A stretch of 37,175 bases of DNA from Ralstonia sp. ASV6 (GTDB lineage: Bacteria; Pseudomonadota; Gammaproteobacteria; Burkholderiales; Burkholderiaceae): positions 1 to 37,175 of the forward strand of contig NZ_JAELUI010000049.1 of the NCBI RefSeq assembly GCF_016429285.1, read 5' to 3'. The notes under the pieces are model-generated. The model made no database searches, was not told the DNA's origin, and was given only the letters and a program-made list of their open reading frames with translations. Positions 1-27,626 of this stretch are shown in pieces. Within the stretch, counting starts at the first letter, position 1, and every line of letters starts with the position of its first letter. The translations under genes and the position numbers were made by a program.

Positions 1-213
1 GAACATGTAGAGACCGAACATGTTGAGCACAAGATGGGCGCCATTTGCGTGGAGGAAAGCGTAGGTCAGCGGCTGCCAAGGCATGAACACGCCATTGCCA
101 TCACCCGCCGACGCCACCAGCGGCCACAACGCGAAGGTGCGGATCAGCGCATCTCCAGCAAAGATCTCTGCGAGAAACACGACCACGTTGGCAACGATGA
201 GCAACTGGACCAT
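1..213 (-). CDS. Rhomboid-family intramembrane serine protease, N-terminal part (cut by window edge)
   Basis: Only the first 71 codons are in the window; the reading frame stays open to base 1. The translation starts MVQLLIVANVVVFLAEI, a first hydrophobic segment, and then contains the stretch WQPLTYAFLHANGAHLVLNM followed by FGLYMF. The W-x2-LTYAFLH-x3-HL-x2-NM pattern is the conserved L1 loop / TM2 entry of rhomboid proteases, where the His and Asn belong to the oxyanion region. The catalytic Ser and His would lie outside the window. The ATG at 213 is preceded by a strong ribosome binding site (AAGGGGG). An FNR-type promoter lies directly upstream (237-277), giving a predicted leader of only about 17 nt. 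What is seen: the N-terminal motif. Inferred: protease activity and oxygen control. Family assignment is fairly sure; the substrate is unknown. Confidence 0.8.
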   Translation of the reverse strand, partial: MVQLLIVANVVVFLAEIFAGDALIRTFALWPLVASAGDGNGVFMPWQPLTYAFLHANGAHLVLNMFGLYMF

Positions 214-236
214 GGAACCCCCTTTGATCTGTGATC

Positions 237-277
237 ACGATACGGGGGCCTGCATCTGCAGGGTTGATCTCGCGCAA
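237..277 (-). promoter_or_regulatory. FNR-type box and -10 element for the rhomboid gene
   Basis: Read in the direction of transcription, 277 to 264 is TTGCGCGAGATCAA, a TTGAT-N4-ATCAA palindrome with two mismatches in the distal half and a perfect proximal half. Exactly 21 bp downstream is TATCGT (242-237), a 4/6 match to TATAAT. The same hexamer at the same distance serves the export operon (18121-18161). The predicted start of transcription is near 230. Toward PolX, on the + side, the hexamer at the same distance is AACGAT and much less convincing. Confidence 0.55.
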
Positions 278-352
278 CCCGGATTCACGAATCAATGAAA
301 CGATGAGACATCCGTGCGCTGCCTATCAGTTCCGCAAAGTTGAGGCTCTCCC

Positions 353-2140: not shown

Positions 2141-2181
2141 TTGCTCTCGGTCAAATGCACGCTTCACGCATCCCTTAGATT
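2141..2181 (+). promoter_or_regulatory. FNR-type box and -10 element for the BON gene
   Basis: TTGCTCTCGGTCAA (2141-2154) is a two-mismatch FNR box. TAGATT (2176-2181) follows exactly 21 bp later. The predicted transcription start near 2188 lies downstream of the first possible ATG of the reading frame (2129), so translation must begin at 2216. Confidence 0.5.
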
Positions 2182-3046: not shown

Positions 3047-3087
3047 TTGATCCCGGTCAACAGTTCAAGGCGCAAGCCATTGAGAAT
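3047..3087 (+). promoter_or_regulatory. FNR-type box and -10 element for the hibernation factor gene
   Basis: TTGATCCCGGTCAA (3047-3060) has one mismatch to TTGAT-N4-ATCAA. GAGAAT (3082-3087), a 4/6 match to TATAAT, follows after exactly 21 bp. The predicted start is near 3094, giving a leader of about 95 nt before the GTG at 3189. Confidence 0.6.
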
Positions 3088-5619: not shown

Positions 5620-5660
5620 AGCGTAGCCAGCCAGCGCCGTTGAATGTTGATGGGCATCAA
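5620..5660 (-). promoter_or_regulatory. Perfect FNR box and -10 element for the nitroreductase operon
   Basis: TTGATGGGCATCAA (5647-5660) matches TTGAT-N4-ATCAA without a mismatch. On the minus strand TACGCT (5625-5620) follows after exactly 21 bp. The same hexamer at the same distance serves the phasin operon and the third universal stress protein. The predicted start is near 5613, giving a 46-nt leader. This is the strongest single site in the window. Confidence 0.75.
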
Positions 5661-5710: not shown

Positions 5711-7522
5711 TCAGCAGAAACATGCGGGCCGGCCTTCGGCTACCGGCAGCATAGACAGCACTTCATCCAATGCTGGATCCGGCCGGAAGATCGTGATGCC
5801 CTTGAGACGCAACTGCCACGCCTGAAATAGCAACGCCCCCACCTCGGCGGGCGACACCCCACCCGCAACAAGCACCGTCTTAGAGATCGAAGCGTCAATG
5901 AACGGCTGCAGCGCAGCGACCATGCGTAGGTGGTCCATACCGTCGACCTGTCTTGCGGTGACGAAGTAGTCGGGCAACGCAGCATGGCCGCCATGCACGG
6001 CCCGGAAGTATCGATAAGCGTGGTTCTCGATACGGTAACGCAGCGGCGGGCCATGCTGAACGCGCACGCGCCGCTCATACGTCCAATCAAAGGCCGGTTC
6101 GATCCCGCTGGAACAGTTACCGCCAAAAGCCAGGCTCACGCTACCGGTGGGCGCCAGCGACAGCAGATGACTATTGCGCAATCCGTGCCGGGCAATCGCG
6201 TCGCGCACGGCGTTGGGCAAGGCGGCGACGAAATGCCCCGGCGCAAGGCTGCGCTCGGCCCGGAACAGCGGATACGGCCCGCGTTCCTGCGCCAGTGCTG
6301 CAGACGCTGCGTAAGCGTTGTCGCGCAAGCACTGTCCAATCTGGGTTGTAAGGTGGCGCGCGTGCGGCGCGTCGTACGGTAGGCGCATCATCGTCAGCGC
6401 GTCGGCCAGACCCGTCACGCCCACACCGACCCTGCGCTTGGCGTGTGCCTCATGCATGTGCTCGGGCAGCGGCCAGCGCGTGATGTCGATCGCGTTGTCG
6501 AGCATCCTCACCTGTACCTGCACCGACCGGCTCAGCCCGACAAAGTCGAACATCGGTTGCCCGCCCACTCCAAACGGGCACTCGACCCAACGGGACAGAT
6601 CGATCGGGCCCAGCACACAACTGCCCCACGGCGGCAGGGGCTGTTCACCACAAGGATTGGTCGCGACGATGGTTTCGACCTCGGCAAGGTCGTTGGCTGC
6701 GTTGATGGTGTCGATGAACAGAAGCCCAGGCTCCGCACTGTGATGTGCGGCCTCGACAATCTCGCGCCAAAGCTGCCGTGCGGGCAGTGTCGCGTAGCAC
6801 CAGTTTCCGTTGCCAAGCGGGTGTGCGCCAGCCGCCCGCGCTATCGCATCGGGCTCGGCACGATGTTGCAGCGGCCATAACGCATCGTCGGCAACGGCCT
6901 GCATGAAGGCGTCTGTCACGGCAACCGATATGTTGAAGGTCGTCCAGCGCTTGCGCTCACGTTTGGCACGGACGAACAAGGCAAGGTCGGGATGGTCGCA
7001 ACGCAGCACGGCCATCTGTGCACCGCCGCGCGTGTTGGACAGTGCAAGCGACTTGCAAGCATGATCGAAGCGCTCGATGACCTCGCTCACGCTGCCGGTG
7101 CCAGCCTGCGCTTGCAGCGCAGCGCGTGGGGCCACGGGTGAGAAGTCGTAGCCTACGCCGCCGCCCATGCGCAGCGTGACCTGTGCCTGCGACAATGCCC
7201 GCTCAATGTCGCTGGCCGCCGCGATCTGCACACCGGGGCCCACAATCGGGTGCACAAAGCAGTTCACCATCGTAGCCTGCCTGGCCACGCCGGCATTCGC
7301 CATGATGCGCCCCGCCCCGATAGCACCATGCAACATGTTGGCGTAGAACAGGCGCGCAAAGTGCGCACGTCGATCGGGCGCTTCTGCCGCCGCCAATGCA
7401 TGGGCAACCCGTCTGAAAACGTGCTCGCGCGTCGTCTCGCCAGGTGCGAGATAGCGGTCCGCCAGCACGGCGGCGCAGACGGGAGGCAAGACCTCTGGCG
7501 CAATCCGTATCTCGCCCACCAT
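5711..7522 (-). CDS. nrdJ: Adenosylcobalamin-dependent (class II) ribonucleoside-diphosphate reductase
   Basis: A 603-residue class II ribonucleotide reductase. It makes deoxyribonucleotides with a B12-derived radical and so needs no oxygen. Visible: the N-terminal redox cysteine in VNCFV (C88), the MGGGVGYDFS motif near 120, the active-site triad N289-x-C291-x-E293 in NPCGEQPLPPWGSCVLG with its partner cysteine C302, LAPTGSVSLAFGGNCSSGIEP, and a C-terminal CFC that would be re-reduced by thioredoxin or glutaredoxin. The spacing C291-C302 matches the family pattern. Start 7522 is preferred because GGGAGG lies 7 bp upstream. It is shorter than typical NrdJ (often above 700 residues) because it lacks an extended N-terminal ATP-cone. 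It follows the alcohol dehydrogenase gene after 186 bp with no promoter that I can see, and is probably co-transcribed from the FNR-type site at 8775-8815. Confidence 0.92.
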   Translation of the reverse strand: MVGEIRIAPEVLPPVCAAVLADRYLAPGETTREHVFRRVAHALAAAEAPDRRAHFARLFYANMLHGAIGAGRIMANAGVARQATMVNCFVHPIVGPGVQIAAASDIERALSQAQVTLRMGGGVGYDFSPVAPRAALQAQAGTGSVSEVIERFDHACKSLALSNTRGGAQMAVLRCDHPDLALFVRAKRERKRWTTFNISVAVTDAFMQAVADDALWPLQHRAEPDAIARAAGAHPLGNGNWCYATLPARQLWREIVEAAHHSAEPGLLFIDTINAANDLAEVETIVATNPCGEQPLPPWGSCVLGPIDLSRWVECPFGVGGQPMFDFVGLSRSVQVQVRMLDNAIDITRWPLPEHMHEAHAKRRVGVGVTGLADALTMMRLPYDAPHARHLTTQIGQCLRDNAYAASAALAQERGPYPLFRAERSLAPGHFVAALPNAVRDAIARHGLRNSHLLSLAPTGSVSLAFGGNCSSGIEPAFDWTYERRVRVQHGPPLRYRIENHAYRYFRAVHGGHAALPDYFVTARQVDGMDHLRMVAALQPFIDASISKTVLVAGGVSPAEVGALLFQAWQLRLKGITIFRPDPALDEVLSMLPVAEGRPACFC

Positions 7523-7708
7523 GGCAATGGCCTCCCTGAGCACGGCGCGTACGGGTCAGTCCGCGTTCAGGAGTGCCCGCACGCGCTTGCAGGCACTGCC
7601 CAGCGATGCCACGGCCACTACGGCCAAGCGTCGGACTCGACCCACGCGCGGCGCCCCAACCGGATCGATGGTGTGCGCCCCTCACTCGCCGTGCCCTGCA
7701 TGGGTGGT

Positions 7709-8774: not shown

Positions 8775-8815
8775 ATGCTAGGCAACCGCTCCGCCCGACC
8801 ATTGATCTGCATCAG
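8775..8815 (-). promoter_or_regulatory. FNR-type box between divergent genes, with -10 elements on both sides
   Basis: TTGATCTGCATCAG (8802-8815) has one mismatch to the FNR palindrome. On the minus side TAGCAT (8780-8775) lies exactly 21 bp away, with a predicted leader of about 22 nt to the alcohol dehydrogenase. On the plus side GATATT (8838-8843) lies 22 bp away and could serve the gene at 8863. The site may drive both directions; the minus direction fits better. Confidence 0.65.
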
Positions 8816-10903: not shown

Positions 10904-10944
10904 AGCATAGTGAGCCGGCAACGCTCCTCGTTGAGTGAGGTCAA
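10904..10944 (-). promoter_or_regulatory. FNR-type box and -10 element for the repeat-protein gene
   Basis: TTGAGTGAGGTCAA (10931-10944) is a symmetrical box with two mismatches to TTGAT-N4-ATCAA. On the minus strand TATGCT (10909-10904) follows after exactly 21 bp. The predicted leader is about 83 nt. Confidence 0.5.
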
Positions 10945-11111: not shown

Positions 11112-11152
11112 TTGCGCCATATCAATCCACATCTGCGCAAAGTGCCTACGCT
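11112..11152 (+). promoter_or_regulatory. FNR-type box and -10 element for the phasin operon
   Basis: TTGCGCCATATCAA (11112-11125) has a perfect proximal half ATCAA and a degenerate distal half TTGCG. TACGCT (11147-11152) follows after exactly 21 bp, the identical hexamer and distance found at the perfect site in front of the nitroreductase operon. Predicted start near 11159. Confidence 0.6.
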
Positions 11153-11213
11153 GCAAACAGAACCATCGTCCGGCGGGAATCCAACCTGCCGGCAAGCTCA
11201 AACGGAGAACACA

Positions 11214-11708
11214 ATGCAACAACCCTCAGATATGGCCTGCAACCTCGTCGGTGCTGCAATGCGCGACATGGGGCGCACCGCTGAATTTCTAATCGAAGCG
11301 CAGATTGAGATCTCCCGCTTGCGCCTGAAGATCGCCGAAGCCGCATTGGAAGACATGCACGAACTGGAGCATGAGTTGGGTAGCGCCCATGACTGGACCT
11401 CTTTGGCAGCGACGCAAAGCATTTTCATGAAAATGCAGTCAAGCCACAGTGCCAACGCCCTGAAATCGTGGGTCGACTTCGTGAACAACCTGCAGGCAGC
11501 GTATCTGCGCCAACTGACCGACTGGACCGACCAGGTGCAGCATGCGCAAGGACAAACGTCCTCGGCGCAGATGTTCCAAGCATCCGCAGATTCACTTCGG
11601 ACATTCTTCGATAGTTTCAACTTGGTGGGCGCGCCAGATTCCGAAGCCAAGAAGAAAGTGATGCCGCGAACGGTCGTAGAGAAGACAGCGAGCCCGCAAG
11701 CCGCCTGA
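11214..11708 (+). CDS. Phasin-like (granule-associated) protein
   Basis: A 164-residue, almost wholly helical protein without a signal peptide. The region of residues 15-110 is amphipathic (TAEFLIEAQIEISRLRLKIA, then a long helix through SANALKSWVDFVNNLQAAYL) and resembles phasins, which coat polyhydroxyalkanoate granules. A closing segment, MFQASADSLRTFFDSFNLV, is followed by a basic, Pro/Ala-rich tail. Start 11214 has CGGAG 6 bp upstream; the frame extends upstream to 10977 but that part carries the promoter. It is the first gene of a four-gene operon (phasin, CBS protein, hydrolase, phosphoribosyltransferase) behind an FNR-type promoter. Together with phaB in another FNR-type operon it suggests that PHB metabolism is adjusted when oxygen falls. 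Phasin families are weakly conserved, so the call is moderate. Confidence 0.65.
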   Translation: MQQPSDMACNLVGAAMRDMGRTAEFLIEAQIEISRLRLKIAEAALEDMHELEHELGSAHDWTSLAATQSIFMKMQSSHSANALKSWVDFVNNLQAAYLRQLTDWTDQVQHAQGQTSSAQMFQASADSLRTFFDSFNLVGAPDSEAKKKVMPRTVVEKTASPQAA

Positions 11709-16177: not shown

Positions 16178-16872
16178 CGCGCGTCTCCCCGTTCAATGCG
16201 GTTCAGGTGGCCGTCTTCCATATTGAGAATGCGGCTGGCCATGTCCAGAATGCGCGCATCGTGCGTCACGATGACGATGCAGCGGTGCTCGTTCATGATC
16301 TCCGTCTTGACGAACTGCATGATCGAGCGGCCCGTATCACCATCGAGCGAGGCCGTCGGCTCGTCGAGGATCAAGATGTCTGGCTGGGTGACGATGGCGC
16401 GCGCAATGGCCACCCGCTGCTGCTCGCCGCCGCTCAATTTGACGGGTGGTAACTGCGCCCGGTTCTTCAGGCCAACCACATCCAGGTAATGCATGGCCTG
16501 CTCAAGCGCTTCGTCCCACACCACACGCCGCAGAATGAGCGGAATGGCAACGTTCTCCACCGTGGTCAGGCGCGGGAACAGGTGATAGTCCTGAAAAACG
16601 AAGCCGATCCTGGCAAGGCGGAAATCGGCCAGCGCGTCGGCTCCCAGGCTCCAGATATCGACGCCGTCGACCACCGCGTGGCCGCCGTCCGGGCGCAGGA
16701 TGCCGGAGATCACACTCAGCAGCGTGGTCTTGCCGCTGCCCGATGGCCCAACGATGAACAACATCTCATTGAAGTAGGCCTCGAAGCTGACCTGCATGAG
16801 CGCGCGCGTGCGCGCCTCGCCTTCGCCAAACCACTTGTCGAGCGCCTGCGCTGCAATGGCGGTGTTGGCCAC
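16174..16872 (-). CDS. ABC transporter ATP-binding protein (MacB/LolD type)
   Basis: A 232-residue ATPase. Walker A is GPSGSGKTT (42-50), the Q-loop is in [13 protein letters not shown], the signature is LSGGEQQR (146-153), Walker B is [12 protein letters not shown] (167-178), and the H-loop is in IVTHDARI. This pattern is that of the LolD/MacB/FtsE group that works with FtsX-like permeases. The open frame extends far upstream inside the permease gene, so I chose the GTG at 16872, two bases after the permease stop and preceded by a GGGGG stretch. The stop overlaps the HlyD start. It powers the tripartite exporter in this operon. Confidence 0.92.
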
Positions 16873-16874
16873 AG

Positions 16875-18011
16875 TTACCCCCGGAAGATGTCGAAGGGCT
16901 CGATGCGCAGCACCTTGCGCACGCCGATGTAGCCCGAGATGGCAGCGATGACGATCACCATGGCCAGTGCCAGTACCAAGTTGGCGAACGTGATCATGGC
17001 GGCGTAGTCCGGAATGCGCAGCCGTGCCAGCGCAATGGATCCCGCACATAGGCCGATCCCGAGCCCGTAGCCCACCAGCGCCACGAAGGTGGCCTGGAAC
17101 ACGATCATCGACACCAGTTCATGCCCCTTGGCCCCGATCGCCTTGAGGGCGCCAAACCGCTCGAGGTTTTCCAGGATGAACGTGTAGAAGGTCTGCCCCG
17201 AGATCGACAACCCAACGATGAAGCTGATCACCGTCATCAACAGGATGTTGGTGCCCAACCCTGTCTGGTAGGTATAAAAGTGCGAGATCCGGCCGATGAA
17301 CTCTTCCTTGGTCAGGGCGCGATACCCGAGCTTGTCAACCGCTCGCTCGATAGCGGCGATATCCGCCTCGCTCTTGGGCTCGATCAGGATGTACGACATC
17401 GTGTAGCGCGTACTCGGCAGATACTGCAGGGCACGGCTATACGTGGTGTACAGCGTGGGCACGCCAAACAGCCCGCTGGTCACCACTTCCCCAACCCCCA
17501 CGATCACACCGCGATGATCATTGATCTCGAACTCGGAGCCGATGTGGGGGTTCTCAAGTTTGCCGAACTCGGCATCCTGAATGACGATGAAGCCGTTCTC
17601 GCCGTAGATGTCTTCGATACGGCCGCTAAGCATGCGCGGCCGCCCGAACAGGGTGGTATCGTCGATGCCGACTACGGTAACGGGCTGATACGTTCCGCTG
17701 GGCAGACGCACAAGCCCGCCGCCTGAATACAGTGGCACGGCAAACTTCACGCCATCAATGCTGCGCACCGCATCGAGCACGTAGTCCGGCATGCCGATGG
17801 TGTTGGCGACGGTATTGACGGCCGGGTCCATGACCCACATGCGGGCGCCGATGTTGTACACCGCAGATGACGACCGGTTCAGCACCCCCGCAAATAGGGA
17901 GGTCATCTCGATCATCAGAAACACGGCAAAGGTGATACCCACCAGCAAGCCGCTCAGCTTGGCCTTGTCATTGACCAAGAGCTTGTAGGCGAGTTTGAGA
18001 ATGGCTGGCAC
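16875..18011 (-). CDS. ABC transporter permease, FtsX/DevC type
   Basis: A 378-residue permease with four predicted transmembrane helices: one near the N-terminus (LSGLLVGITFAVFLMIEMTS), a periplasmic domain of about 200 residues, then three helices at the C-terminus (ILLMTVISFIVGLSISGQTF; IVFQATFVALVGYGLGIGLC; LVLALAMVIVIAAISGYIGV). The typical FtsX stretch ERFGALKAIGAKGHELVSMI lies between them. A GTG at 18011 gives the normal family start (VPAILKLAYKLLVNDKAKLS) and has a GGGGG stretch before it like its downstream neighbour; the longer frame to 18092 is less likely. It is the first gene of the export operon, behind an FNR-type promoter and about 180 bp below the response regulator gene. 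Confidence 0.85.
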   Translation of the reverse strand: MPAILKLAYKLLVNDKAKLSGLLVGITFAVFLMIEMTSLFAGVLNRSSSAVYNIGARMWVMDPAVNTVANTIGMPDYVLDAVRSIDGVKFAVPLYSGGGLVRLPSGTYQPVTVVGIDDTTLFGRPRMLSGRIEDIYGENGFIVIQDAEFGKLENPHIGSEFEINDHRGVIVGVGEVVTSGLFGVPTLYTTYSRALQYLPSTRYTMSYILIEPKSEADIAAIERAVDKLGYRALTKEEFIGRISHFYTYQTGLGTNILLMTVISFIVGLSISGQTFYTFILENLERFGALKAIGAKGHELVSMIVFQATFVALVGYGLGIGLCAGSIALARLRIPDYAAMITFANLVLALAMVIVIAAISGYIGVRKVLRIEPFDIFRG

Positions 18012-18120
18012 ATGACCCCCGTGGTCATGCACGGCGGTACTGGTCAGGCCTTGGGGCGACGTGTGAATGACCTGCAATGGGCCGCGTGCCAAGCCATCGG
18101 GTGCCGATGCATGTGCCTCA

Positions 18121-18161
18121 ACGATAGCGAGTCACGAGTGCTGGCCTTTGATGTGCCGCAA
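18121..18161 (-). promoter_or_regulatory. FNR-type box and -10 element for the export operon
   Basis: TTGATGTGCCGCAA (18148-18161) reads TTGCG-N4-ATCAA in the direction of transcription: proximal half perfect, distal half with two mismatches. TATCGT (18126-18121) follows after exactly 21 bp, identical in sequence and distance to the rhomboid promoter. The predicted leader is about 100 nt. Confidence 0.5.
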
Positions 18162-18190: not shown

Positions 18191-18838
18191 TTACAGGGTG
18201 TCGTCGTCCGAGAACAAACGATGGCGTATCGCATAGCGCACGAGTGCCGCCTCGCTGGACACCTGCAGCTTGTCCATCAGCCGCATCTTGTAGGTGCTGA
18301 TGGTCTTGGCGCTGACACACAGGCTGGCGGCAATCTCGGTCAGCGGTTCCCCGCGTACCAGCCGGCGGTAGACCTCCATCTCCCGGTCGGACAGGCGGGT
18401 GTGCGCAGCCTCATCACTGGCTTCGCCCAGGCTGTGCGCAAGCTTTTCGGCCATGGCCGGGCTGACATACGTGCCGCCACGTGCCACCTTTTGCAGCGCG
18501 GTCACCAGTTCGGTTGCGGCGCTTTCCTTGGTCAGATAGGCAGCTGCCCCAGCACGGAAAGCGCGCGCCACATACTGTTCTTCGGCATGCATGGTCAGCA
18601 CCAGCACACGCACCGTCGGATGATCGTCGTGCAGTTGACGCAGCAGATCCAGGCCGCTACGCCCCGGCATTGATAGATCGAGCACGATCACCTGCGGCTG
18701 GTGCTCACGCACAAGCTGCAGCACCTGGGTCCCGTCGGACGCTTCGCAGGCGACATCGAAATCACCGGCGCGCTCCAGGATATGGCGTACGCCGTCGCGC
18801 ATGACAGCGTGGTCATCGGCAATCATCACGCGGATCAT
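18191..18838 (-). CDS. NarL/FixJ-family response regulator
   Basis: A 215-residue two-component response regulator. The receiver domain (1-120) has the acidic pair D8-D9, the phosphoacceptor D54 in VIVLDLSMPG, the conserved Thr in VLTMHAEE and the Lys in AYLTKESA. The C-terminal LuxR-type helix-turn-helix is in LSDREMEVYRRLVRGEPLTE, with SAKTISTYKMRLMDKLQV as recognition region. The ATG overlaps the stop of the histidine kinase gene (ATGA), so the two form one operon and a cognate pair. Targets are unknown; the export operon immediately downstream is a candidate. The NarL-type receiver plus HisKA_3-type kinase is the same architecture as mycobacterial DosR-DosS. Confidence 0.93.
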   Translation of the reverse strand: MIRVMIADDHAVMRDGVRHILERAGDFDVACEASDGTQVLQLVREHQPQVIVLDLSMPGRSGLDLLRQLHDDHPTVRVLVLTMHAEEQYVARAFRAGAAAYLTKESAATELVTALQKVARGGTYVSPAMAEKLAHSLGEASDEAAHTRLSDREMEVYRRLVRGEPLTEIAASLCVSAKTISTYKMRLMDKLQVSSEAALVRYAIRHRLFSDDDTL

Positions 18839-20217
18839 GGTCCAATCTCCTCGGTCACCTCATGGAAGGCAGGAAAGCGCACGCTCAATCGAAAGCCGTT
18901 GTTGGGTGTATGCGTGATGGAAGCCTGACCGCCCAGTTGCCGAGCACGCTCGCGTATGCCCAGCAGCCCCAGCGGTTTGCGCTCACCCGATGCGGGTGGC
19001 CCCCCGCTCCAGCCACGGCCGTTGTCCTGGATTGAGAGTTCGAGCATGTCATCCTGCCGCGCAAATTCGATATCAACACGGGTAGCGTCAGCATGGCGCA
19101 CCACGTTATTGAGGGCCTCCTGCACAATCCGAAACACCGAGATTGCCGCATGCTCCTGCAGCCGCGTCTCCTGAGCGTGTACGTTGACGATCAGTCCAAA
19201 GCGCTGGCGAAAGTTCTTGGCAATCCATTCGATGGCGGGCACCAGCCCCAGTTCATCTAGCAACGGCGGGCGAAGATCGGCAGAAATCTGCCGGACCGCT
19301 GCGATGGTCTCGTCAATCACGCGCTGCATGGCCTCTGTCTGCGAGACCAACGCCCTGTCACTTGCCCCGGCCTGCAGATCCGCTGCCAGCAGCGAAATAT
19401 CCATCTTGAGCGCACTCAGGCGCTGCCCAAGGTCATCGTGCAGTTCACGTGCGATGCGACGCCGTTCTTCTTCTCGCGACGCCAGAATGCTGTCCGATAG
19501 ATGCTGGAGTTCTTCTTGCGAGCGCCGCAGCGCCGCTTCCGCTCGCACGCGCTCCGTGGTGTCGCGCAGCATCACGGTGAAAAGCTTGCCTCCATTCACC
19601 TCAATCTGCGAGATCGAGGCTTCGATGGGGAATTCACGGCCGTCGGCGTGCAGAGCGAACAACGGGCGCTGCTTGCCCATCTGGCGCTCTGATACGCCAG
19701 TCACGCCAAAGCGCCGCACATGCGCCTCGTGTGCACCACGAAACCGCTCGGGCATGAAGTCAGACAGCGGGCGGCCGACAGCATGTTTTGCCGGGCATCC
19801 GAACAGGGTTTCCGCCATGGGATTGAACAGAACGATGCGCTGGGTATCGTCCACCGAGATGATCGCCTCCATGGAGGAGCGGATGATGCCCGCCAACCGG
19901 GCCTCACTCTTCTCCAGATCGGTGAGATCCTTCGCGACCGCTGCGCGCAACGCGCGAAGTCGCAGCCAATAGAAGACAAGTGCCAGAACAGCGGCAATGC
20001 TTGCCAGGGCCAACAATACAAACGGTGCGTCCCGCGCCTGGAGTGCCATGGCAAGCCAGGTAACTGACGCAGCCAGCAGCAGAATGGCCAACCCGCCCGC
20101 CATCAGCTCGGCCGGTGTGGAACGCGATAGCAACAGGCGCCTGCGCGACGCCTTTGAGAAAGGGCTGTCTTGCTCCACCACACATGTCACCAGAAGGGCC
20201 GAGATGACATCAAACAT
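18835..20217 (-). CDS. PAS-domain sensor histidine kinase (NarX/DegS-like HisKA_3 type)
   Basis: A 460-residue membrane kinase. Two hydrophobic segments near residues 38-60 and 65-86 leave almost no periplasmic loop, so the signal is probably sensed in the membrane or cytoplasm. A PAS domain spans about residues 105-220 (AIISVDDTQRIVLFNPMAET, then DGREFPIEASISQIEVNGG). The dimerisation helix holds the phosphoacceptor His 260 in RRRIARELHDDLGQRLSALK. The HATPase has QEALNNVVRHA (N box) and DNGRGW (G box), and GLLGIRERARQLGG closes the ATP lid. No GAF/heme domain like that of DosS is visible. The start at 20217 has no strong Shine-Dalgarno, so the first residues are uncertain. Its stop overlaps the response regulator start. 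Confidence 0.9.
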   Translation of the reverse strand: MFDVISALLVTCVVEQDSPFSKASRRRLLLSRSTPAELMAGGLAILLLAASVTWLAMALQARDAPFVLLALASIAAVLALVFYWLRLRALRAAVAKDLTDLEKSEARLAGIIRSSMEAIISVDDTQRIVLFNPMAETLFGCPAKHAVGRPLSDFMPERFRGAHEAHVRRFGVTGVSERQMGKQRPLFALHADGREFPIEASISQIEVNGGKLFTVMLRDTTERVRAEAALRRSQEELQHLSDSILASREEERRRIARELHDDLGQRLSALKMDISLLAADLQAGASDRALVSQTEAMQRVIDETIAAVRQISADLRPPLLDELGLVPAIEWIAKNFRQRFGLIVNVHAQETRLQEHAAISVFRIVQEALNNVVRHADATRVDIEFARQDDMLELSIQDNGRGWSGGPPASGERKPLGLLGIRERARQLGGQASITHTPNNGFRLSVRFPAFHEVTEEIGP

Positions 20218-20304: not shown

Positions 20305-20473
20305 GCCGCAGCCTATGCCGACATGCATCTCAGCGCTGCCTGATTTCGCGCAAGCCGCTGGCCTTCGATACTGAGCATACGGACACCGAGCTTCGGCTTC
20401 ATGCGGTGACCGATCCCGCCGCCCCTAAACCAAATGCGGGAATCACATACAGCGCATGCCCTCCGGAGGCCCC

Positions 20474-21274
20474 ATGATTCCGAGCTCTCTCAAAAGCCAG
20501 ACATCTGTCGACGTCGTCCGCCCATTGGCCCCGCGTCAACTCAAGCTGGTGCGTGATGCAAGCCAGGGTGGCCAAACTGCCGGCCTGGCGTCGGCCAGCC
20601 CATGCGCAAACTGCGTGATGCACTGGGCGTGCATTACTGGGGCTGTGCCATCCGCGCAACAGGAAAGGCTGGACCGGATGGTTCATACCTGGCGAAAAGT
20701 CGGCAAAGGCGAATCGCTGTTCCGCGCCGGCGACACCTTTCATGCGCTGTATGCCATCCGCTCCGGCTCCTTCAAGACGGTCGTATCTCACCCCAATGGC
20801 ACGAGCCACGTTACGGGCTTCCAATTGTCAGGGGAAACCCTCGGTCTGGACGGCATTGCCGCTGATCGTCACACGTGTGACGCAGTTGCCTTGGAAGACA
20901 GCACCGTCTGCTCCATGCCATTCCACTGTGTTGAAGACCTGTGCCAGGACATTCGTCCGCTGCAGCGCCGGCTTCACCAACTGATGGCGGAAGAAATCGT
21001 GCGCGAATCCGGGTTGATGTTGCTGCTGGCGGGGCTGACCGCAGAGACGCGCGTCGCGACGTTCCTGCTCAATCTATCCACGCGCATGCAAGACCGGGGC
21101 TATTCCGGGTCCAGCTTTACGCTGCGGATGACGCGCGAGGAGATCGGCAGCTATCTGGGCATGCAACTGGAAACCGTCAGCCGCGCGTTGTCGCGGTTCC
21201 AACGCGAAGGCTGGATCGCGGTGAGTGGCAAGCAGATTGGGATCGTGAAGAAATCGGCGCTCAGTGAACTGTAG
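20474..21274 (+). CDS. fnr: FNR-type oxygen-sensing transcription regulator (Crp/Fnr family)
   Basis: A 266-residue Crp/Fnr regulator with the complete cysteine set of oxygen-sensing FNR: C44-x2-C47-x5-C53 near the N-terminus (PCANCVMHWAC) and C146 in STVCSMPF, which aligns with the fourth ligand of Escherichia coli FNR (C122). These would hold an oxygen-labile [4Fe-4S] cluster. The sensor barrel contains GESLFRAGDTFHALYAIRSG, the dimerisation helix follows, and the helix-turn-helix is MTREEIGSYLGMQLETVSR. Its E233-x2-S236-R237 equals the E-x2-SR that reads TTGAT in FNR. Start 20474 has GGAGG 5 bp upstream; an ATG at 20456 is less likely. It stands alone, divergent from the kinase gene. It is very probably the activator of the FNR-type promoters in this window, though other FNR copies may exist in the genome. 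Confidence 0.92.
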   Translation: MIPSSLKSQTSVDVVRPLAPRQLKLVRDASQGGQTAGLASASPCANCVMHWACITGAVPSAQQERLDRMVHTWRKVGKGESLFRAGDTFHALYAIRSGSFKTVVSHPNGTSHVTGFQLSGETLGLDGIAADRHTCDAVALEDSTVCSMPFHCVEDLCQDIRPLQRRLHQLMAEEIVRESGLMLLLAGLTAETRVATFLLNLSTRMQDRGYSGSSFTLRMTREEIGSYLGMQLETVSRALSRFQREGWIAVSGKQIGIVKKSALSEL

Positions 21275-21330: not shown

Positions 21331-21978
21331 TCAAGGCGCGAGCTGCAGATGGTCGATGACTTCCGTCACGCCAGGCGCCGACCATGCAGCGCCCTTGGCC
21401 GCCTTGCGTTCTGACGCAGAATCGACACGGCCGCTGAGCGTTACCGTTCCACCCTGGACCGACACTTGGATATGGTTGGCCTCGCGCGCGGCATGGCGCT
21501 GGAGTGCCGCGCCGATCTGCTGCGTAATATTGGCAGGCACCACGCGCGACTTGACCGTCAGACGGTTGATCAACCCGGCCACGCCACGCAATGCGCCGAC
21601 TGCGTGCGCCGCCAGCTCACACTGGTAAGGCCAATCCAGTTCGCCCGAGAGCGTCACCCACCCGTTCTCCACCAGAACTTCGATGCGATTGGATGGCAGG
21701 CTGGAATGCCATTCAATCGCTGAGCGGGCCGCTTCGGCAACGTCCGCATCCGTATGTGTGCCGGGCAATCGCACTTCAATCTTCTGAACCACGCCACGTA
21801 CACCCGCAACGCGTTCAGCGGCATGCTCGGCCGCCACTTTCTCCAGATAGCTGCGTACGTGGCCGGTGAGTGTCACCACCCCGTGGTCGACCTCCACCCC
21901 CACGCCTGCCGCATCCACAGCAGGCTCCCAAAGCAGTTCGTCATTGACGTCTTGCTTGATACCCAGGTCGCTTTTCAT
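21331..21978 (-). CDS. Triple BON-domain protein (OsmY-like), last gene of the six-gene stress operon
   Basis: A 215-residue protein built of three BON domains at about residues 4-70, 78-143 and 149-214. Each has the helix / GVVTLTGHV-type strand-turn-strand pattern (VDHGVVTLTGHVRSYLEK; ENGWVTLSGELDWPYQCELA; QGGTVTLSGRVDSASERKAA). There is no signal peptide, so it should stay in the cytoplasm, unlike periplasmic OsmY. AGGAG and GAGGT precede the ATG at 21978. It is paralogous to the gene at 22996-23649, with the same length and the same start pattern (MKxD-x4-DV-x2-EL-W-PAVDA). BON proteins of this type are stress-induced in proteobacteria; the ligand is unknown. The gene converges with fnr. 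Confidence 0.9.
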   Translation of the reverse strand: MKSDLGIKQDVNDELLWEPAVDAAGVGVEVDHGVVTLTGHVRSYLEKVAAEHAAERVAGVRGVVQKIEVRLPGTHTDADVAEAARSAIEWHSSLPSNRIEVLVENGWVTLSGELDWPYQCELAAHAVGALRGVAGLINRLTVKSRVVPANITQQIGAALQRHAAREANHIQVSVQGGTVTLSGRVDSASERKAAKGAAWSAPGVTEVIDHLQLAP

Positions 21979-22009
21979 ACCTCACTCCTACCGTACTTAA
22001 GTTTGCGCG

Positions 22010-22372
22010 CTAGCCCCATCCTCGCTCTCGCTCGGCTTGACAGTTCAGGCAGCGCAGCGCGGTTGGCTGCGCTTGCAGGCGCAAGAATGGAATCGCCTCG
22101 CCGCAATCCATACAGATACCGTACTGCCCCTCCTGCATGCGTTGTCGTGCGGCATCGACCTGCGCAAGCTCGTTCCTGTAGTGAACAAGCATGATGTCGT
22201 TCGCCTGGTCTCCAGCTTCTTGATCCGCCAGGTCTGCATTCTCGACCGGTGCCTCGTGAGAGGCTGGTCTGGTCGCTGCGCGCAGTGTTGCCAGTTGACG
22301 CTGCGTGCGTGCCTCCTGTTCATCGAGCAATGTGTTGAGGCGCGTCCATTGATCCTCGGTAAAGCGATGCAT
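22010..22372 (-). CDS. DksA/TraR-type zinc finger protein
   Basis: A 120-residue protein with a long N-terminal coiled coil (residues about 5-75, including EDQWTRLNTLLDEQEARTQR) and a C-terminal C4 zinc finger: GICMDCGEAIP, then LRCLNCQ, with two C-x2-C pairs. It is like DksA in layout, which inserts its coiled coil into the secondary channel of RNA polymerase and works with ppGpp. The acidic tip residues here lie around ENADLADQEAGD. It is shorter than DksA itself (about 150). Start 22372 has AGGAG 7 bp upstream. It is the fifth gene of the stress operon, 46 bp after the flavodoxin gene. It suggests a second layer of transcription control during oxygen shortage. Confidence 0.88.
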   Translation of the reverse strand: MHRFTEDQWTRLNTLLDEQEARTQRQLATLRAATRPASHEAPVENADLADQEAGDQANDIMLVHYRNELAQVDAARQRMQEGQYGICMDCGEAIPFLRLQAQPTALRCLNCQAERERGWG

Positions 22373-22418
22373 GCACACTCTCCTGCGGTCGATCCGATGC
22401 GCCATCCCCGCTTAGGTT

Positions 22419-22949
22419 TCAGGCTTCTGTTGGTGAGAGCCAAGCCGGCCGGCGCCTGGATTGCTCCCACTTGCCGGCGGTCTGTACTTGTTCAATAAAT
22501 CCCGCGATCTCCTGCTGGGAAAGACCGCTGAGCACGTCACGCTGGCAAAGTGCCAGGACCGGTGCCGGAATGGCAGAGGTGATGCGCGCGACCTCTTCAA
22601 TGGCGCGGAACGCCCCGCGCGATGCCATGACGCAGATCACCGACAGGTTTGCCGAGAACGGTGATTGATCCGCCAGGAAATCCCGCATCGGCGAGGCCAG
22701 GTGGCCCATCCAAATGGGCGCCAGCACAACAACTTGGTCGACCTCATCCAGCGGTGGTCCTTCGTAGTGATACTTGGCGCGCTTGTGCAACAGCGCTTCA
22801 ATCACGCAGCGCAGATCGCCAAGAAAACCGGCACGCGGATACGCGTCCGCAACTTCGGCAAGCTGCCAACCGCTTTGCGCCGCCATCAGTTCAGCCACCT
22901 GGCGTGCCGTGCCGGTGCGCGAGTAGTAGACGATCAGGTTCTTTTCCAT
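22419..22949 (-). CDS. Flavodoxin-family protein
   Basis: A 176-residue flavodoxin-like protein. Visible: the N-terminal strand and FMN phosphate loop (LIVYYSRTGTARQVAELMA, with SRTGTA matching T/S-x-T-G-x-T/A), a middle VDQVVVLAPIWMGHLASPMR containing the P-x-W aromatic loop, and VICVMASRGAF for the third FMN contact. The C-terminal 45 residues are less conserved and end with basic residues. It could act as a one-electron or NAD(P)H-linked carrier, perhaps serving reductases of the low-oxygen set. It lies 46 bp after the triple-BON gene at 22996 and 46 bp before the DksA-like gene. Start 22949 has only a weak Shine-Dalgarno. Confidence 0.85.
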   Translation of the reverse strand: MEKNLIVYYSRTGTARQVAELMAAQSGWQLAEVADAYPRAGFLGDLRCVIEALLHKRAKYHYEGPPLDEVDQVVVLAPIWMGHLASPMRDFLADQSPFSANLSVICVMASRGAFRAIEEVARITSAIPAPVLALCQRDVLSGLSQQEIAGFIEQVQTAGKWEQSRRRPAWLSPTEA

Positions 22950-22995
22950 GGCAGATGTCTGGATTGGATCAAGGAGAAAGGTGCGCCCAACTCGG

Positions 22996-23649
22996 TCAGG
23001 TGCCCACCCAAAGATGGTCGATCACGGCGTGCACCCCAGGAGCATCCATGGCGGCCTCTCGCGCGGCGCGGCACTCATGCAGATTGCGCAGGGGGCCGTA
23101 CAGCGTGACCGTGCCATCCGCCACCACGACATTGATCCGTGCGGCATCGAGAACAGCCTGGCGCTGCAGCGCCTTGACGATGCGCTCGGACAGGTCTGCC
23201 GGGCCCGCAACCTCATGCAGCGTCAGCGCATTGGCAACCGATGTCACGCCGCGCACGCGTTGTACGGCATCCAGTGCCGCACGACGCTGGAAATCCTGAT
23301 CGACCTTGCCCCGCAAGGTCACGGCACCATCCTCGACCGTGACGTGGATGGCATCAGCAGGCACGGCAGTGTTCCAATGGAGTGCGTCGCCGATGGCCTG
23401 GGCAATCTCCTCATCCGGACGCCGCATATCGGGCGGCACGCGCACCTGCACGTGCACAACGAGCGCGGTAACACCCGACACGCGGCGAATCGCTTCCTCC
23501 GCGGCATGCTTGTCCGCAAAGCTATCGGCGCTGCCTGAGATCGTGACGACGCCGTTCTTGACGCGAATGGCAAACCGGTCGGCATCGACAGCCGGATCCC
23601 ATTGCAACTCCTCCTCCACATCGCTCTTGAGCTGGATGTCGTTCTTCAT
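22996..23649 (-). CDS. Triple BON-domain protein (OsmY-like), third gene of the stress operon
   Basis: A 217-residue protein with three BON domains (about residues 4-70, 77-142 and 150-215), for example VKNGVVTISGSADSFADKHA, VEDGAVTLRGKVDQDFQRRA and VADGTVTLYGPLRNLHECRA. No signal peptide is present. The ATG at 23649 is preceded by CAGGAG. It is paralogous to the last gene of the same operon (21331-21978), so a duplication within the operon is likely, later split by the flavodoxin and DksA-like genes or assembled from separate copies. It follows the two-domain universal stress protein after 27 bp. The role is unknown beyond association with stress. Confidence 0.9.
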   Translation of the reverse strand: MKNDIQLKSDVEEELQWDPAVDADRFAIRVKNGVVTISGSADSFADKHAAEEAIRRVSGVTALVVHVQVRVPPDMRRPDEEIAQAIGDALHWNTAVPADAIHVTVEDGAVTLRGKVDQDFQRRAALDAVQRVRGVTSVANALTLHEVAGPADLSERIVKALQRQAVLDAARINVVVADGTVTLYGPLRNLHECRAAREAAMDAPGVHAVIDHLWVGT

Positions 23650-23676
23650 GGCGATCTCCTGGAATAGTGTCAGGAC

Positions 23677-24516
23677 TCAGTGGGACATCAAGACCGGCAC
23701 GGTCATCGTCTTGAGCAGCGTGCGAGTCACCCCGCCGAGCACGAGTTCGCGCAGACGGCCGTGCCCATAGGCCCCCATCACGATCAGGTCAGCACCGAAA
23801 TCGGCAGCGCGCGATAGCAGCATCTCGCCAATCGCCACGTCGGAATCCACACAACGTGCCTCCTCAACCTTGGCCTCAATGCCATGTGCCAGCAGCGCGC
23901 GGGCGACCTGGCCCACTGTCGTGTCCTCCGCCCAATGCTGCGGCCGGTCACCCGTCATTTGCAGGACTTGTACGGCGTTTCCAGACATCAACGGCATCGC
24001 ATCATGCAGTGCACGTGCCGACTCCCGGCCACCGCTCCACCCCACCAGCACTCGCTGCGCCACACTCGTAAAGCGGCCGGCATACGGCACGACCAGTACC
24101 GGCCGGCCTGACTCAAGGATCAGCGTTTCAACAAAATCGGGGGCAACAAAACTCTCGGCGTCGCTGGTGTCTTCCTGGCCGACCACCAGCAGGTCCGCCT
24201 CACGAGCCTGGCGCAACACCTCAGCCAGCGGATCACCGTCGACTGACCGCCATTCCGTCTCCACAGGAACGGATTGCATCGCCTCACGAAAACGCGCATG
24301 CACAACGTCCCGAACACGGTCGCGCCGGTTGCGGTCTTCTTCCAGGTAATGCGCTGCGCCTTCCATCCGGTAGAACCAGTTCGGGCTTGGCGCAAAGCTT
24401 GCGTAGACAGCGATGAGCTTTGCGTGGTGCGCCTGTGCGTAGCACGCGGCAAGACTGAGGCGGCGCACCGCGCGCTCGCTGGCATCCAGATGCACCATCA
24501 CGCTGGCATAAGTCAT
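23677..24516 (-). CDS. Tandem-domain universal stress protein
   Basis: A 279-residue protein with two universal-stress (Usp) domains: 1 to about 145 and 150-279. The first starts TYASVMVHLDASERAVRRLS and ends DLLVVGQEDTSDAE, lacking the ATP motif. The second ends DLIVMGAYGHGRLRELVLGG with a partial G-x2-G-x9-G motif where the usual final Ser is not present. It may therefore bind nucleotide weakly or not at all. Start 24516 has GAGG 7 bp upstream; the upstream frame to 24552 is not typical. It is the second gene of the six-gene stress operon, 35 bp after the single-domain Usp gene. Such tandem Usps are common in anaerobic or dormancy regulons (ANR in Pseudomonas, DosR in Mycobacterium). Confidence 0.92.
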   Translation of the reverse strand: MTYASVMVHLDASERAVRRLSLAACYAQAHHAKLIAVYASFAPSPNWFYRMEGAAHYLEEDRNRRDRVRDVVHARFREAMQSVPVETEWRSVDGDPLAEVLRQAREADLLVVGQEDTSDAESFVAPDFVETLILESGRPVLVVPYAGRFTSVAQRVLVGWSGGRESARALHDAMPLMSGNAVQVLQMTGDRPQHWAEDTTVGQVARALLAHGIEAKVEEARCVDSDVAIGEMLLSRAADFGADLIVMGAYGHGRLRELVLGGVTRTLLKTMTVPVLMSH

Positions 24517-24551
24517 GATCGATCCTCGCTCTGAGTCAAAAGAAGAACGCA

Positions 24552-25052
24552 CTAGGCAATGGCAAGGTTCGTCAGCGGTTCGGTGCCCGCGCGCTCGGTT
24601 TCAGGCGGAACGGCCCGCACCAGCAGCACCGGCAGCGTGCTTTGTCGCGTGACGCTTTCCGCCACGCTACCGAGCAAGATCCGGCGGAAGCCGCGTCGGC
24701 CATGCGTTCCGAGCACCAGCAGCTTGGCGTCGGCGTCGCGCGCGGCCTGTTCGATCGCATAGCCCACATCAAAGGCGCCAAGCGGGTCGTTCACGAGCTG
24801 CGTCTTGACGCGTGCACCGGCTTTCTCAGCCGTGGCTTTTGCACTCGCTACGATCTGCTTGCCGGACTCGATCAGCATCTCGGTGAACCCGGCCACGTCG
24901 ATATAACCGACGTCGTACCTCAGGTAGTTGTTGTCGATCACGTGAGCAATGATCAGCTCCGCGTCGAGCTTCAGGGCAAGCTGAATGGCTTCGTCCAAAG
25001 CCCGATCCGCCGTTGGACTGCCGTCTACCGCTACCAGGATCCTGTCGTACAT
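24552..25052 (-). CDS. Universal stress protein, ATP-binding type, first gene of the stress operon
   Basis: A 166-residue single-domain Usp. It starts MYDRILVAVDGSPTADRALD (conserved first strand and Asp) and ends with GTHGRRGFRRILLGSVAESV, a complete G-x2-G-x9-G-S motif for ATP binding. Residues 45-70 contain YLRYDVGYIDVAGFTEMLIE. The C-terminal 20 residues are a hydrophilic tail. Start 25052 has GGAGG 6 bp upstream. It opens the operon Usp / tandem Usp / triple BON / flavodoxin / DksA-like / triple BON, with gaps of 27 to 46 bp throughout, and has an FNR-type box upstream (25135-25148). A similar protein at 27171-27626 shares the fold and ATP motif. Confidence 0.93.
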   Translation of the reverse strand: MYDRILVAVDGSPTADRALDEAIQLALKLDAELIIAHVIDNNYLRYDVGYIDVAGFTEMLIESGKQIVASAKATAEKAGARVKTQLVNDPLGAFDVGYAIEQAARDADAKLLVLGTHGRRGFRRILLGSVAESVTRQSTLPVLLVRAVPPETERAGTEPLTNLAIA

Positions 25053-25107
25053 GATGCGCCTCCATATTGAATCGGCCGAGCGCCCGAGCACGGGCTAACG
25101 TGACTCC

Positions 25108-25148
25108 ATGTTGGACCACCGGATGGATTGCCCCTTGATTTACATCAG
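25108..25148 (-). promoter_or_regulatory. FNR-type box and -10 element for the six-gene stress operon
   Basis: TTGATTTACATCAG (25135-25148) has one mismatch. Read toward the universal stress gene it is CTGAT-N4-ATCAA, with the proximal half perfect. The hexamer exactly 21 bp away, CAACAT (25113-25108), matches TATAAT at only three positions, so this -10 is the weakest of the set. Confidence 0.6.
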
Positions 25149-25180: not shown

Positions 25181-25221
25181 TTGATCTACCTCAAAAACCT
25201 CTGCGCACCTTTCACTAGACT
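25181..25221 (+). promoter_or_regulatory. FNR-type box and -10 element for the CBS / DUF2892 / alcohol dehydrogenase operon
   Basis: TTGATCTACCTCAA (25181-25194) has one mismatch; TAGACT (25216-25221) follows after exactly 21 bp. The neighbouring box at 25135-25148 serves the opposite direction: swapping the assignments gives no -10 at the right distance. The predicted start is near 25228, giving a 110-nt leader to the ATG at 25338. Confidence 0.65.
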
Positions 25222-25337
25222 TTTCTGTTGCCCACAGATCCCCCTCCTGCAACGGAGGACGACAACATCTTGTGCGGGATCAACTTCTGGAACTTGTCCG
25301 TTCTTATAGTGAACACGTACGCGCATCGGAGTCCAGC

Positions 25338-26028: not shown

Positions 26029-26078
26029 GCGTTCCGCACCCTCCGGACTGACCGGGTGCGGTGCGTCTGGAGACGCCA

Positions 26079-27089
26079 ATGCGAGAATCCATGCGAGCCA
26101 TGGTCCACGAAAGCACGGCGGCGCCACTGCAGTGGCGAGAGGTGCCTGTGCCGGCTCCCGGGCCGGGAGAAGTCCGGATCACCGTGTCCGTGTGTGGAGT
26201 CTGCCGTACCGACCTGCACATCGTGGATGGTGAACTTCCGCATCCCAAGGCATCGCTCATTCCCGGCCACGAAATCGTGGGTGTCGTCGAGTCCTGTGGC
26301 CCAGGCGTTTCTTCGCCAGCGCCGGGTGAGCGAGTTGGCGTGCCCTGGCTTGGCTGGACATGCGGCGCCTGCCCGTTCTGCTTGAGCGGGCACGAGAACC
26401 TGTGCGACCACCCCGCCTTCACGGGCTACACGCGTGATGGCGGCTATGCCGAGTACGTGGTCTGCGATGCCCGGTACTGCCTGCCGATTCCACAGCGGTA
26501 TGACGACGCGCATGCGGCCCCGCTGCTGTGCGCCGGTCTGATCGGCTATCGGACGCTACGCATGGCTGGAGATGCACGTCGAATCGGCATCTATGGCTTT
26601 GGCGCGGCAGCCCACCTGGTCACCCAGATTGCCGTGGCGGAGCAGCGCAAAGTCTTCGCCTTCACACGCCCCGCAGACACAGCTGCACAGCAGCTTGCCC
26701 TGGAGACAGGCGCCAGTTGGGCTGGATCGAGCGACCAATCCGCGCCGGAGTTGCTGGATGCGGCCTTGATCTTTGCTCCGGTTGGGGCGCTCATACCACA
26801 AGCCCTGCTAGCTGTCGCCAAGGGTGGTGCCGTGGTCTGTGGCGGCATTCACATGAGCGATATTCCGTCGTTCCCGTACCGGCTGCTGTGGGAGGAACGC
26901 AAACTCATGTCGGTGGCCAATCTGACCCGCGCGGATGGCCTTGCGCTGATGCAGGCGGCATCGGCAATCCCGTTAAAGGTGCATGTCACAACGTACCGGC
27001 TGCAAGATGCCAACGCCGCGCTGGATGACCTGCGCACGGGGCGCGTTGCCGGCGCCGCAGTGTTGAGGGTCGCGCCTGATAAGCGTTGA
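26079..27089 (+). CDS. Zinc-dependent alcohol dehydrogenase (AdhA-like)
   Basis: A 336-residue medium-chain zinc dehydrogenase. Visible: catalytic zinc ligands in GVCRTDLHIVDGELPHP and PGHEIVGVVESCG, structural zinc cysteines in CGACPFCLSGHENLCD, the substrate-side CAGLIGYRTLRMAGD, and a cofactor motif GFGAAAH in place of the common GxGxxG. The sequence HPKASLIPGHE and LWEERKLMSVANLTR are typical of the AdhA group. The start at 26079 has GGAG 7 bp upstream; the frame opens at a GTG at 26061. It is the third gene of the CBS / DUF2892 operon. The next FNR-type promoter (27086-27126) overlaps its stop codon. It probably reduces acetaldehyde or similar carbonyls to dispose of NADH; the substrate is not shown by sequence. 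Confidence 0.9.
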   Translation: MRESMRAMVHESTAAPLQWREVPVPAPGPGEVRITVSVCGVCRTDLHIVDGELPHPKASLIPGHEIVGVVESCGPGVSSPAPGERVGVPWLGWTCGACPFCLSGHENLCDHPAFTGYTRDGGYAEYVVCDARYCLPIPQRYDDAHAAPLLCAGLIGYRTLRMAGDARRIGIYGFGAAAHLVTQIAVAEQRKVFAFTRPADTAAQQLALETGASWAGSSDQSAPELLDAALIFAPVGALIPQALLAVAKGGAVVCGGIHMSDIPSFPYRLLWEERKLMSVANLTRADGLALMQAASAIPLKVHVTTYRLQDANAALDDLRTGRVAGAAVLRVAPDKR

Positions 27090-27126
27090 TGTGCGTCAAT
27101 GGGGATCCCACCATGCGGGCTACGCT
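27086..27126 (+). promoter_or_regulatory. FNR-type box and -10 element for the third universal stress protein
   Basis: TTGATGTGCGTCAA (27086-27099) has one mismatch, and TACGCT (27121-27126) follows after exactly 21 bp. The box overlaps the stop codon of the upstream alcohol dehydrogenase gene. Predicted leader about 38 nt. Confidence 0.65.
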
Positions 27127-27170
27127 GGTGACAAGCGGCACCGTCCCGCATGATCCCTTTGGAGGCCACC

Positions 27171-27626
27171 ATGTACCAACGCATCCTGCTCGCTATCGAT
27201 GGAAGTCATGCATCGCTCCTTGCGCTGCATCAGGCCATTGTCGTAGGCAAAGCCACCGGCGCAGAGGTCGAGGCCTTGTTTGTGGCTGACAGTTCAGACC
27301 TGACCTTCGACATGGTCGGCTGCGATGCAATTGCCTACGCAAAGCGCGTGCTTGAGGTAGGTCGGGAAACCCTGGCCAGCGCAGCAAGCAAGCTGGAAAC
27401 AGCTGGCGTCAAACACTCGACCAAACTGCTGGAAAAGGGCATCGCCCCCGGCCAGATCTCGACGACGATCGTGGCGGAAGCGAACGAAACCGGAGCGGAC
27501 CTGATCGTGCTCGGCACGCACGGCCGGCGTGGGCTCAACCATCTGGTCCTGGGCAGCGTGGCCGAAGGTGTCGTTCGCAAGACCAACAAGCCTGTGCTGA
27601 TGGTGCGCAGCGAGGTTGAAGAATAG
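27171..27626 (+). CDS. Universal stress protein, ATP-binding type
   Basis: A 151-residue single-domain Usp starting MYQRILLAIDGSHASLLALH and ending with GTHGRRGLNHLVLGSVAEGV, the complete G-x2-G-x9-G-S ATP motif. Start 27171 has GGAGG upstream; the frame opens earlier at 27150 (MIPLEAT), which overlaps the Shine-Dalgarno. It resembles the Usp at 24552-25052, but the region after the first strand differs, so they are separate members rather than a recent copy. It has its own FNR-type promoter and is the last gene of the low-oxygen block. The next gene, a LysR regulator, converges with it. Confidence 0.93.
   Translation: MYQRILLAIDGSHASLLALHQAIVVGKATGAEVEALFVADSSDLTFDMVGCDAIAYAKRVLEVGRETLASAASKLETAGVKHSTKLLEKGIAPGQISTTIVAEANETGADLIVLGTHGRRGLNHLVLGSVAEGVVRKTNKPVLMVRSEVEE

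Follow-up and report, generated by a model that had tools for sequence, protein, structure and literature searches.

A putative lxa-type low-oxygen survival locus in Ralstonia sp. ASV6 with FNR-type promoters of fixed 21-bp spacing

The window analysed here is contig C461 (NZ_JAELUI010000049.1; 37,175 nucleotides) of Ralstonia sp. ASV6, whose 5.9-Mb genome lies in 718 contigs, and its first 27.6 kb hold a series of FNR-type promoters, each made up of a TTGAT-N4-ATCAA-like box and a -10 hexamer 21 bp further along. Pfam and NCBIfam searches identified in the window PolX, an S30AE hibernation factor, a short-chain reductase, a nitroreductase, a B12-dependent ribonucleotide reductase-like protein, two alcohol dehydrogenases, an AAA/APH protein, two CBS proteins, a phosphoribosyltransferase, a MacB-like permease with ABC, HlyD and outer-membrane efflux proteins, a response regulator, a PAS kinase, an FNR-family regulator, two BON proteins, a DksA/TraR-type protein, a flavodoxin and three universal stress proteins (Usp). 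Scanning the window for Rfam families and tRNAs gave no hits. Window positions 1–127 were identical to the end of another contig, C524 (L046 13899–14025), and this exact 127-base overlap indicated that C461 runs on into C524; the two contigs also map to adjoining positions in relatives G001, G002 and G004. Families encoded on C524 were DUF1488, ribose-phosphate pyrophosphokinase, beta-CASP metallo-hydrolase, Hsp20, FtsH, CorA, PfkB, DUF3300, DUF2950 and rhomboid.

A first-pass annotation of the sequence had proposed eleven such promoters, and all eleven boxes were found where it placed them, each with its hexamer at a gap of exactly 21 bp on the strand it named (Table 1). In an unguided scan of the window (box, TTGAT-N4-ATCAA with ≤ 2 mismatches; -10 rule, TANNNT), 25 boxes were recovered, 11 of them from the earlier list, relative to a mean of 7.2 (standard deviation 2.7, maximum 15) in 150 first-order Markov simulations of the window. 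Box-N21-TANNNT occurred 10 times, far above the simulated mean of 0.087 (maximum 1), and across gaps of 0–60 bp, gap 21 gave 10 instances and each other gap 0 or 1. These ten instances comprised nine of the listed sites and one at 25270 (+) that had been overlooked, such that the earlier list was right in its coordinates and short by a twelfth site. The hexamers of the remaining two listed sites, GAGAAT (3047) and CAACAT (25135), did not fit TANNNT; a strict TANNNT rule would drop both and was rejected as a site criterion, and 25135 was retained for its conservation. Boxes with two mismatches numbered five (264, 2141, 10931, 11112 and 18148) rather than the four first reported.

Table 1. Promoter sites, named by box start, and selected genes of the window. 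Start codons after the hexamers were judged by eye, and operon extents were inferred from strand and gene order.
Feature	Coordinates	Strand	Box	-10 hexamer	Genes downstream or content	Orthologous sites
Site 264	237–277	-	264–277	TATCGT 237–242	toward rhomboid-family gene continuing on C524	4 (two in one genome)
Site 2141	2141–2181	+	2141–2154	TAGATT 2176–2181	small open reading frame (ORF) from ~2216 (start by eye)	1
Site 3047 (weakest)	3047–3087	+	3047–3060	GAGAAT (-10-like) 3082–3087	S30AE hibernation-factor-like gene	0
Site 5647	5620–5660	-	5647–5660 (perfect)	TACGCT 5620–5625	nitroreductase, ORF, short-chain-reductase genes	1
Site 8802	8775–8815	-	8802–8815	TAGCAT 8775–8780	zinc alcohol dehydrogenase, B12-dependent ribonucleotide reductase-like genes	6
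Site 10931	10904–10944	-	10931–10944	TATGCT 10904–10909	small, exported-looking ORF	1
Site 11112	11112–11152	+	11112–11125	TACGCT 11147–11152	phasin-like ORF (~11208–11708)	7
Site 18148	18121–18161	-	18148–18161	TATCGT 18121–18126	MacB-like permease, ABC ATPase, HlyD, outer-membrane efflux genes	8
Site 25135	25108–25148	-	25135–25148	CAACAT (weak) 25108–25113	Usp-Usp-BON-flavodoxin-DksA/TraR-BON run	7
Site 25181	25181–25221	+	25181–25194	TAGACT 25216–25221	CBS-domain gene (first tandem site)	9
Site 25270	25270–25310	+	TTGTGCGGGATCAA, N21	TATAGT 25305–25310	CBS-domain gene, likely start 25338, by eye (second tandem site); conserved in relatives	6
Site 27086 (last of cluster)	27086–27126	+	27086–27099	TACGCT 27121–27126	universal stress protein gene 27150–27626	10
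Adenosylcobalamin-dependent ribonucleotide reductase-like gene	5711–7543	-			PRK06948
Response regulator and histidine kinase pair	18191–20217	-			LuxR-type regulator, PAS kinase
FNR-family regulator gene	20456–21274	+			inside cluster
Gene run behind site 25135	21331–25091	-			BON, DksA/TraR, flavodoxin, BON, Usp, Usp

Orthologous sites were collected by Blast anchoring in 31 Ralstonia-type loci (L001–L011, L050–L063 and L070–L075, some from the same genomes), considering only hits that spanned the site and counting identical 41-mers once per site. This yielded 60 distinct sites covering 11 of the 12 promoters, all of which were counted. Identity to the window was 95.8% over the ten specified box positions and 98.9% over the hexamer, cf. 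83.8% at the inner four box positions and 59.5% in the 21-bp spacer, and the best-matching gap (range 17–26) was 21 in 60/60 sites, with ties resolved to 21 and the box start movable by ≤ 3 bases to the best box. CAACAT of site 25135 was unchanged in 7/7 distinct orthologous sites. For site 3047, relatives showed similar one-mismatch boxes with AAGAAT, at a gap of 22 in G002 and 21 in G004. At the -35 position the spacers had diverged, and no -35 element was conserved across the set. The spacer of 25270, the second site of the tandem pair (25181–25310), had diverged less, being fairly conserved among several relatives, and may therefore carry another signal.

The same spacing dominated in a wider set of loci. 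Homologous loci were recruited with the histidine kinase (closest named relatives Ralstonia sp. A12, R. soli and R. pickettii), and 44 of 45 were used after exclusion of L045, a Patescibacteria hit. Among gaps of 5–44 bp, gap 21 was counted 43 times in 11 Ralstonia-type loci (next highest gap, 3), 67 times in 18 Cupriavidus-type loci, including L026, which is titled Ralstonia sp. (next highest, 5), and 32 times in 15 Paraburkholderia/Burkholderia-type loci (next highest, 9), although these counts are not independent because homologous loci share ancestry. Four of the 44 loci lacked any gap-21 site (L009, L038, L043 and L044), L009 and L044 being short pieces.

Genome-wide, box-N21-TANNNT with ≤ 1 mismatch over box and hexamer was found six times, every time in the ~36-kb block formed by C524 and C461. 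With ≤ 2 mismatches, 18 of 59 matches lay in the block (14 in the window, 4 on C524) and represented 15 distinct boxes, three of which gave a match on each strand; the pattern reversed as a control yielded 5 matches across the genome. Of the 4 perfect TTGATN4ATCAA boxes in the 5.9-Mb genome, 3 lay in the block. Across five related genomes, 21 of 42 matches with ≤ 1 mismatch were in or near the homologous region (counted by hand, the homologous contig of G003 and G005 being recognised by number and coordinates only), and the reversed control gave 0. The left border of the site cluster was only the contig end, and the cluster ran on into C524, where boxes at 22650, 26784 and 30712 pointed, respectively, at the genes for FtsH and a DUF3300 protein and at an ORF that matched no family above its cut-off; among these sites only the third (30712) had a full TANNNT hexamer. 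The first-pass annotation had seen no site after 27.6 kb, and this right border held, since all five two-mismatch boxes past 27626 lacked TANNNT at gap 21. Beyond 27086, no full box plus hexamer was detected in ~9 kb of the window, ~11 kb of G002 or ~20 kb of G004, and past the border in G001 there was one one-mismatch box with a 2-of-3 hexamer, 22 kb away. Further one-mismatch box-N21-TANNNT matches were observed at 38976, 47458 and 60341 on the same contig of G004 (C25), outside the cluster.

Some of the genes behind these sites merit comment. The PRK06948-like ribonucleotide reductase gene had strong matches in 7 of 16 genomes of the genus, its own included, and was missing in G001 between the nitroreductase and the alcohol dehydrogenase; a box-N21-hexamer stood within ~2 kb of it in 6/6 relatives' loci (L070–L075). 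By reading of their sequences, the short-chain reductase looks to be of the acetoacetyl-CoA-reductase type and the ORF at ~11208–11708 phasin-like, both putatively related to polyhydroxybutyrate; the latter had no family match in Pfam or NCBIfam. The efflux genes (MacB-like, ABC, HlyD, outer-membrane) occupied 13623–18092 behind a conserved FNR-type promoter. Past the cluster, a 788-aa protein (31474–33840) had weak ankyrin-repeat matches at its C-terminus.

The regulator encoded inside the cluster kept cysteines C50, C53, C59 and C152 in an alignment to a solved FNR over 42–272, the four [4Fe-4S] cysteines of an oxygen-sensing FNR; its recognition segment read ETVSR. A second FNR gene (C527:25794), whose product was 39% identical and kept the N-terminal CxxCx5C motif and the fourth cysteine, adjoined a FixG/CcoG-type gene. 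Two further FNR relatives in the genome were weak hits (23% and 31% identity).

The layout of the window sites is also that of the nirB promoter of Escherichia coli, a class II FNR promoter that in the MG1655 sequence reads TTGATTTACATCAA-N21-TAAGGT. Differences are that nirB is a single promoter serving nitrite reduction and that it has further regulators. As box, spacing and hexamer position all equal those of nirB, and the box appears to replace the -35 element, the sites are best read as promoters that FNR activates in the class II manner. The first-pass annotation had already proposed an FNR-type class II layout, for which the geometry, the footprints of conservation, the clustering, the identity with nirB and the two four-cysteine FNRs all argue.

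The gene content resembled the lxa locus (BCAM0275–BCAM0323) of Burkholderia cenocepacia J2315/K56-2, which is itself low-oxygen-activated, whereas in the Ralstonia locus such activation is predicted. The original lxa paper is Sass 2013, whose motif claim is cited here through PMC4505428. In a comparison with the protein table in PMC6127331 that considered families rather than orthology or gene order, both loci contained Usp, Hsp20, DUF1488, BON and nitroreductase-type proteins, a short-chain (acetoacetyl-CoA-type) reductase, a zinc alcohol dehydrogenase, and metallo-beta-lactamase-fold and phosphofructokinase-type (PfkB) proteins. An FNR gene lies within that locus too, many of the genes that low oxygen induces are reported to have an FNR-box-like motif (PMC4505428), and the locus is absent in strain H111 (PMC3759415). 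Unlike lxa, the window had a B12-dependent ribonucleotide reductase and an efflux operon under its boxes, neither being among the lxa proteins in PMC6127331, and three Usp genes rather than six, and the cytochrome c and phosphate acetyl/butyryltransferase of lxa were not seen in the annotated parts of the block. The shared gene families, the internal FNR gene and the FNR-box motif at the genes place the Ralstonia locus, on present evidence, in the lxa kind. A second precedent is the Fnr1/Fnr3 regulon of another betaproteobacterium, Herbaspirillum seropedicae, which like the window includes uspA genes as Fnr1/Fnr3 targets, and where the fnr1 promoter, its start site determined, carries an Fnr site with its centre at -42 and is counted as class II (PMC5934665). 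That organism, like the present one, has several Fnr orthologs (three), with fnr1 near cbb3 oxidase genes, but in the available text its targets are not described as one gene cluster, and there both the hybrid half-sites and the interaction between paralogs have been put to experimental test (PMC5934665).

Taken together, the window most probably covers the greater part of a low-oxygen survival locus of the lxa type that is switched on by FNR via class II activation, a reading to which we assign a probability of about 0.9. When oxygen drops, an FNR dimer of the [4Fe-4S] type (the locus protein, its paralog elsewhere, or both) would bind the TTGAT-N4-ATCAA-like boxes. The box would stand in for the -35 element, centred ~41 bp upstream of the transcription start, and bound FNR would contact RNA polymerase seated on the -10 hexamer 21 bp further along. 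In this way fifteen sites (twelve in the window, three on C524) could switch on about fourteen transcription units together, whose products would include universal stress, BON, CBS, ribosome-hibernation, DksA-like and FtsH proteins, alcohol dehydrogenase, B12-dependent ribonucleotide reductase, short-chain reductase, the phasin-like protein and the efflux operon, with a likely role in anoxic survival.

Several observations weigh against this interpretation. The cluster FNR scored 212 bits, below the NCBIfam Fnr cut-off of 228 (NF008365), although this was the best of nine families, and in the window scan no box-N21-TANNNT stood upstream of the fnr gene or the kinase-regulator pair. Hexamers deviated from TANNNT at two of twelve sites (3047 and 25135), site 3047 was without any orthologous site in the search of Ralstonia-type loci, and the 60 orthologous sites share descent and do not represent 60 independent events. 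Outside the block lay 41 of the 59 matches with ≤ 2 mismatches, against 5 in total for the reversed control; the regulon is thus clustered but perhaps not confined to the block, and part of the 41 may be real FNR promoters. The two poor hexamers, and the fact that the earlier list took 11 of 25 available boxes, would also suit a pattern produced by chance and a reader's selection among many boxes and hexamers. The simulations, the peak at one spacing, the footprints and the genome-wide clustering agree in opposing this for all sites except 3047, as the first-pass annotation had argued of the fixed spacing, and we give it virtually no weight; for the set as a whole a chance origin was refuted by the simulations and the 60 orthologous sites, and 3047 alone stays unproven.

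The identity of the binding protein leaves more room for doubt. Boxes such as TTGC-N6-TCAA are compatible with a looser FixK-like code, so that another CRP/FNR-family protein, FixK- or DNR-like and not itself oxygen-sensing, might read them under the control of a two-component system or nitric oxide. The PAS kinase of the cluster was partly FixL-like, albeit at 75.8 bits against a cut-off of 850, but the genome search turned up just two strong FNR relatives, both of which retain the Fe-S cysteines, and no denitrification gene was among the annotated cluster genes, making such a regulator unlikely even with the precedent of Burkholderia dolosa, in which fixK, homologous to anr2, is reported to be driven by FixLJ (PMC9104464).

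FNR-family proteins also repress, and box and hexamer could have been conserved for repression or another role, such as FNR blocking a sigma-70 promoter. This is very improbable given that the spacing is exactly the activator spacing of nirB, that the spacers as a set hold no conserved -35 element, and that two reports describe low-oxygen induction of homologous lxa genes (PMC9733578, PMC4505428).

Oriented by transcription, the twelve window sites were not symmetrical: the promoter-proximal TCAA was invariant (12/12) and the distal TTGA varied in seven. At the ten TANNNT sites, mismatches upstream vs downstream were 11 vs 4 over whole half-sites (p = 0.12) and 6 vs 0 over the TTGA/TCAA core (p = 0.03). 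For all twelve sites the core counts were 7 and 0, and with the three C524 sites, one of which violates the invariant-TCAA rule, 7 and 1 (about p = 0.07; counted by hand). A Ralstonia set of 43 unique box-plus-hexamer sequences (≤ 3 mismatches; not independent by descent) showed 27 upstream and 5 downstream core mismatches (p = 1e-4). Corresponding counts were 25 and 35 in the Cupriavidus-type set and 10 and 12 in the Paraburkholderia-type set, the latter leaning the opposite way over whole half-sites (≤ 2 mismatches; 9 upstream, 24 downstream, p = 0.014), and the absence of such a bias from these two sets makes the asymmetry at best lineage-specific. It resembles the hybrid half-sites that were proposed for Fnr3-Fnr1 heterodimers at Group III promoters of Herbaspirillum (PMC5934665), but the inner-base preference differs, as the Fnr3-like preference at positions 6–7 was not one-sided here (23 upstream and 23 downstream of 42). 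That the Ralstonia sites are oriented hybrid sites rather than true palindromes, activated by the cluster FNR paired with the second FNR in an oriented heterodimer, is accordingly a doubtful proposal.

The kind of locus is already known from lxa, and a literature search of titles and abstract starts recognised no description of it in Ralstonia, which is not proof of absence. The present analysis contributes the precise promoter geometry and evidence that it is conserved, adds a twelfth site, follows the locus onto C524 and points to a half-site asymmetry that may be real. Ralstonia would thereby join the carriers of lxa-type loci for low-oxygen survival, with a promoter-level map in which the layout predicts fifteen transcription start sites and a rigid 21-bp rule recovers degenerate FNR sites that are invisible to motif search alone. 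If the oriented half-sites are real, they would offer a natural test-bed for FNR heterodimers, and if the heterodimer proposal is true, the locus would require both oxygen sensors at once.

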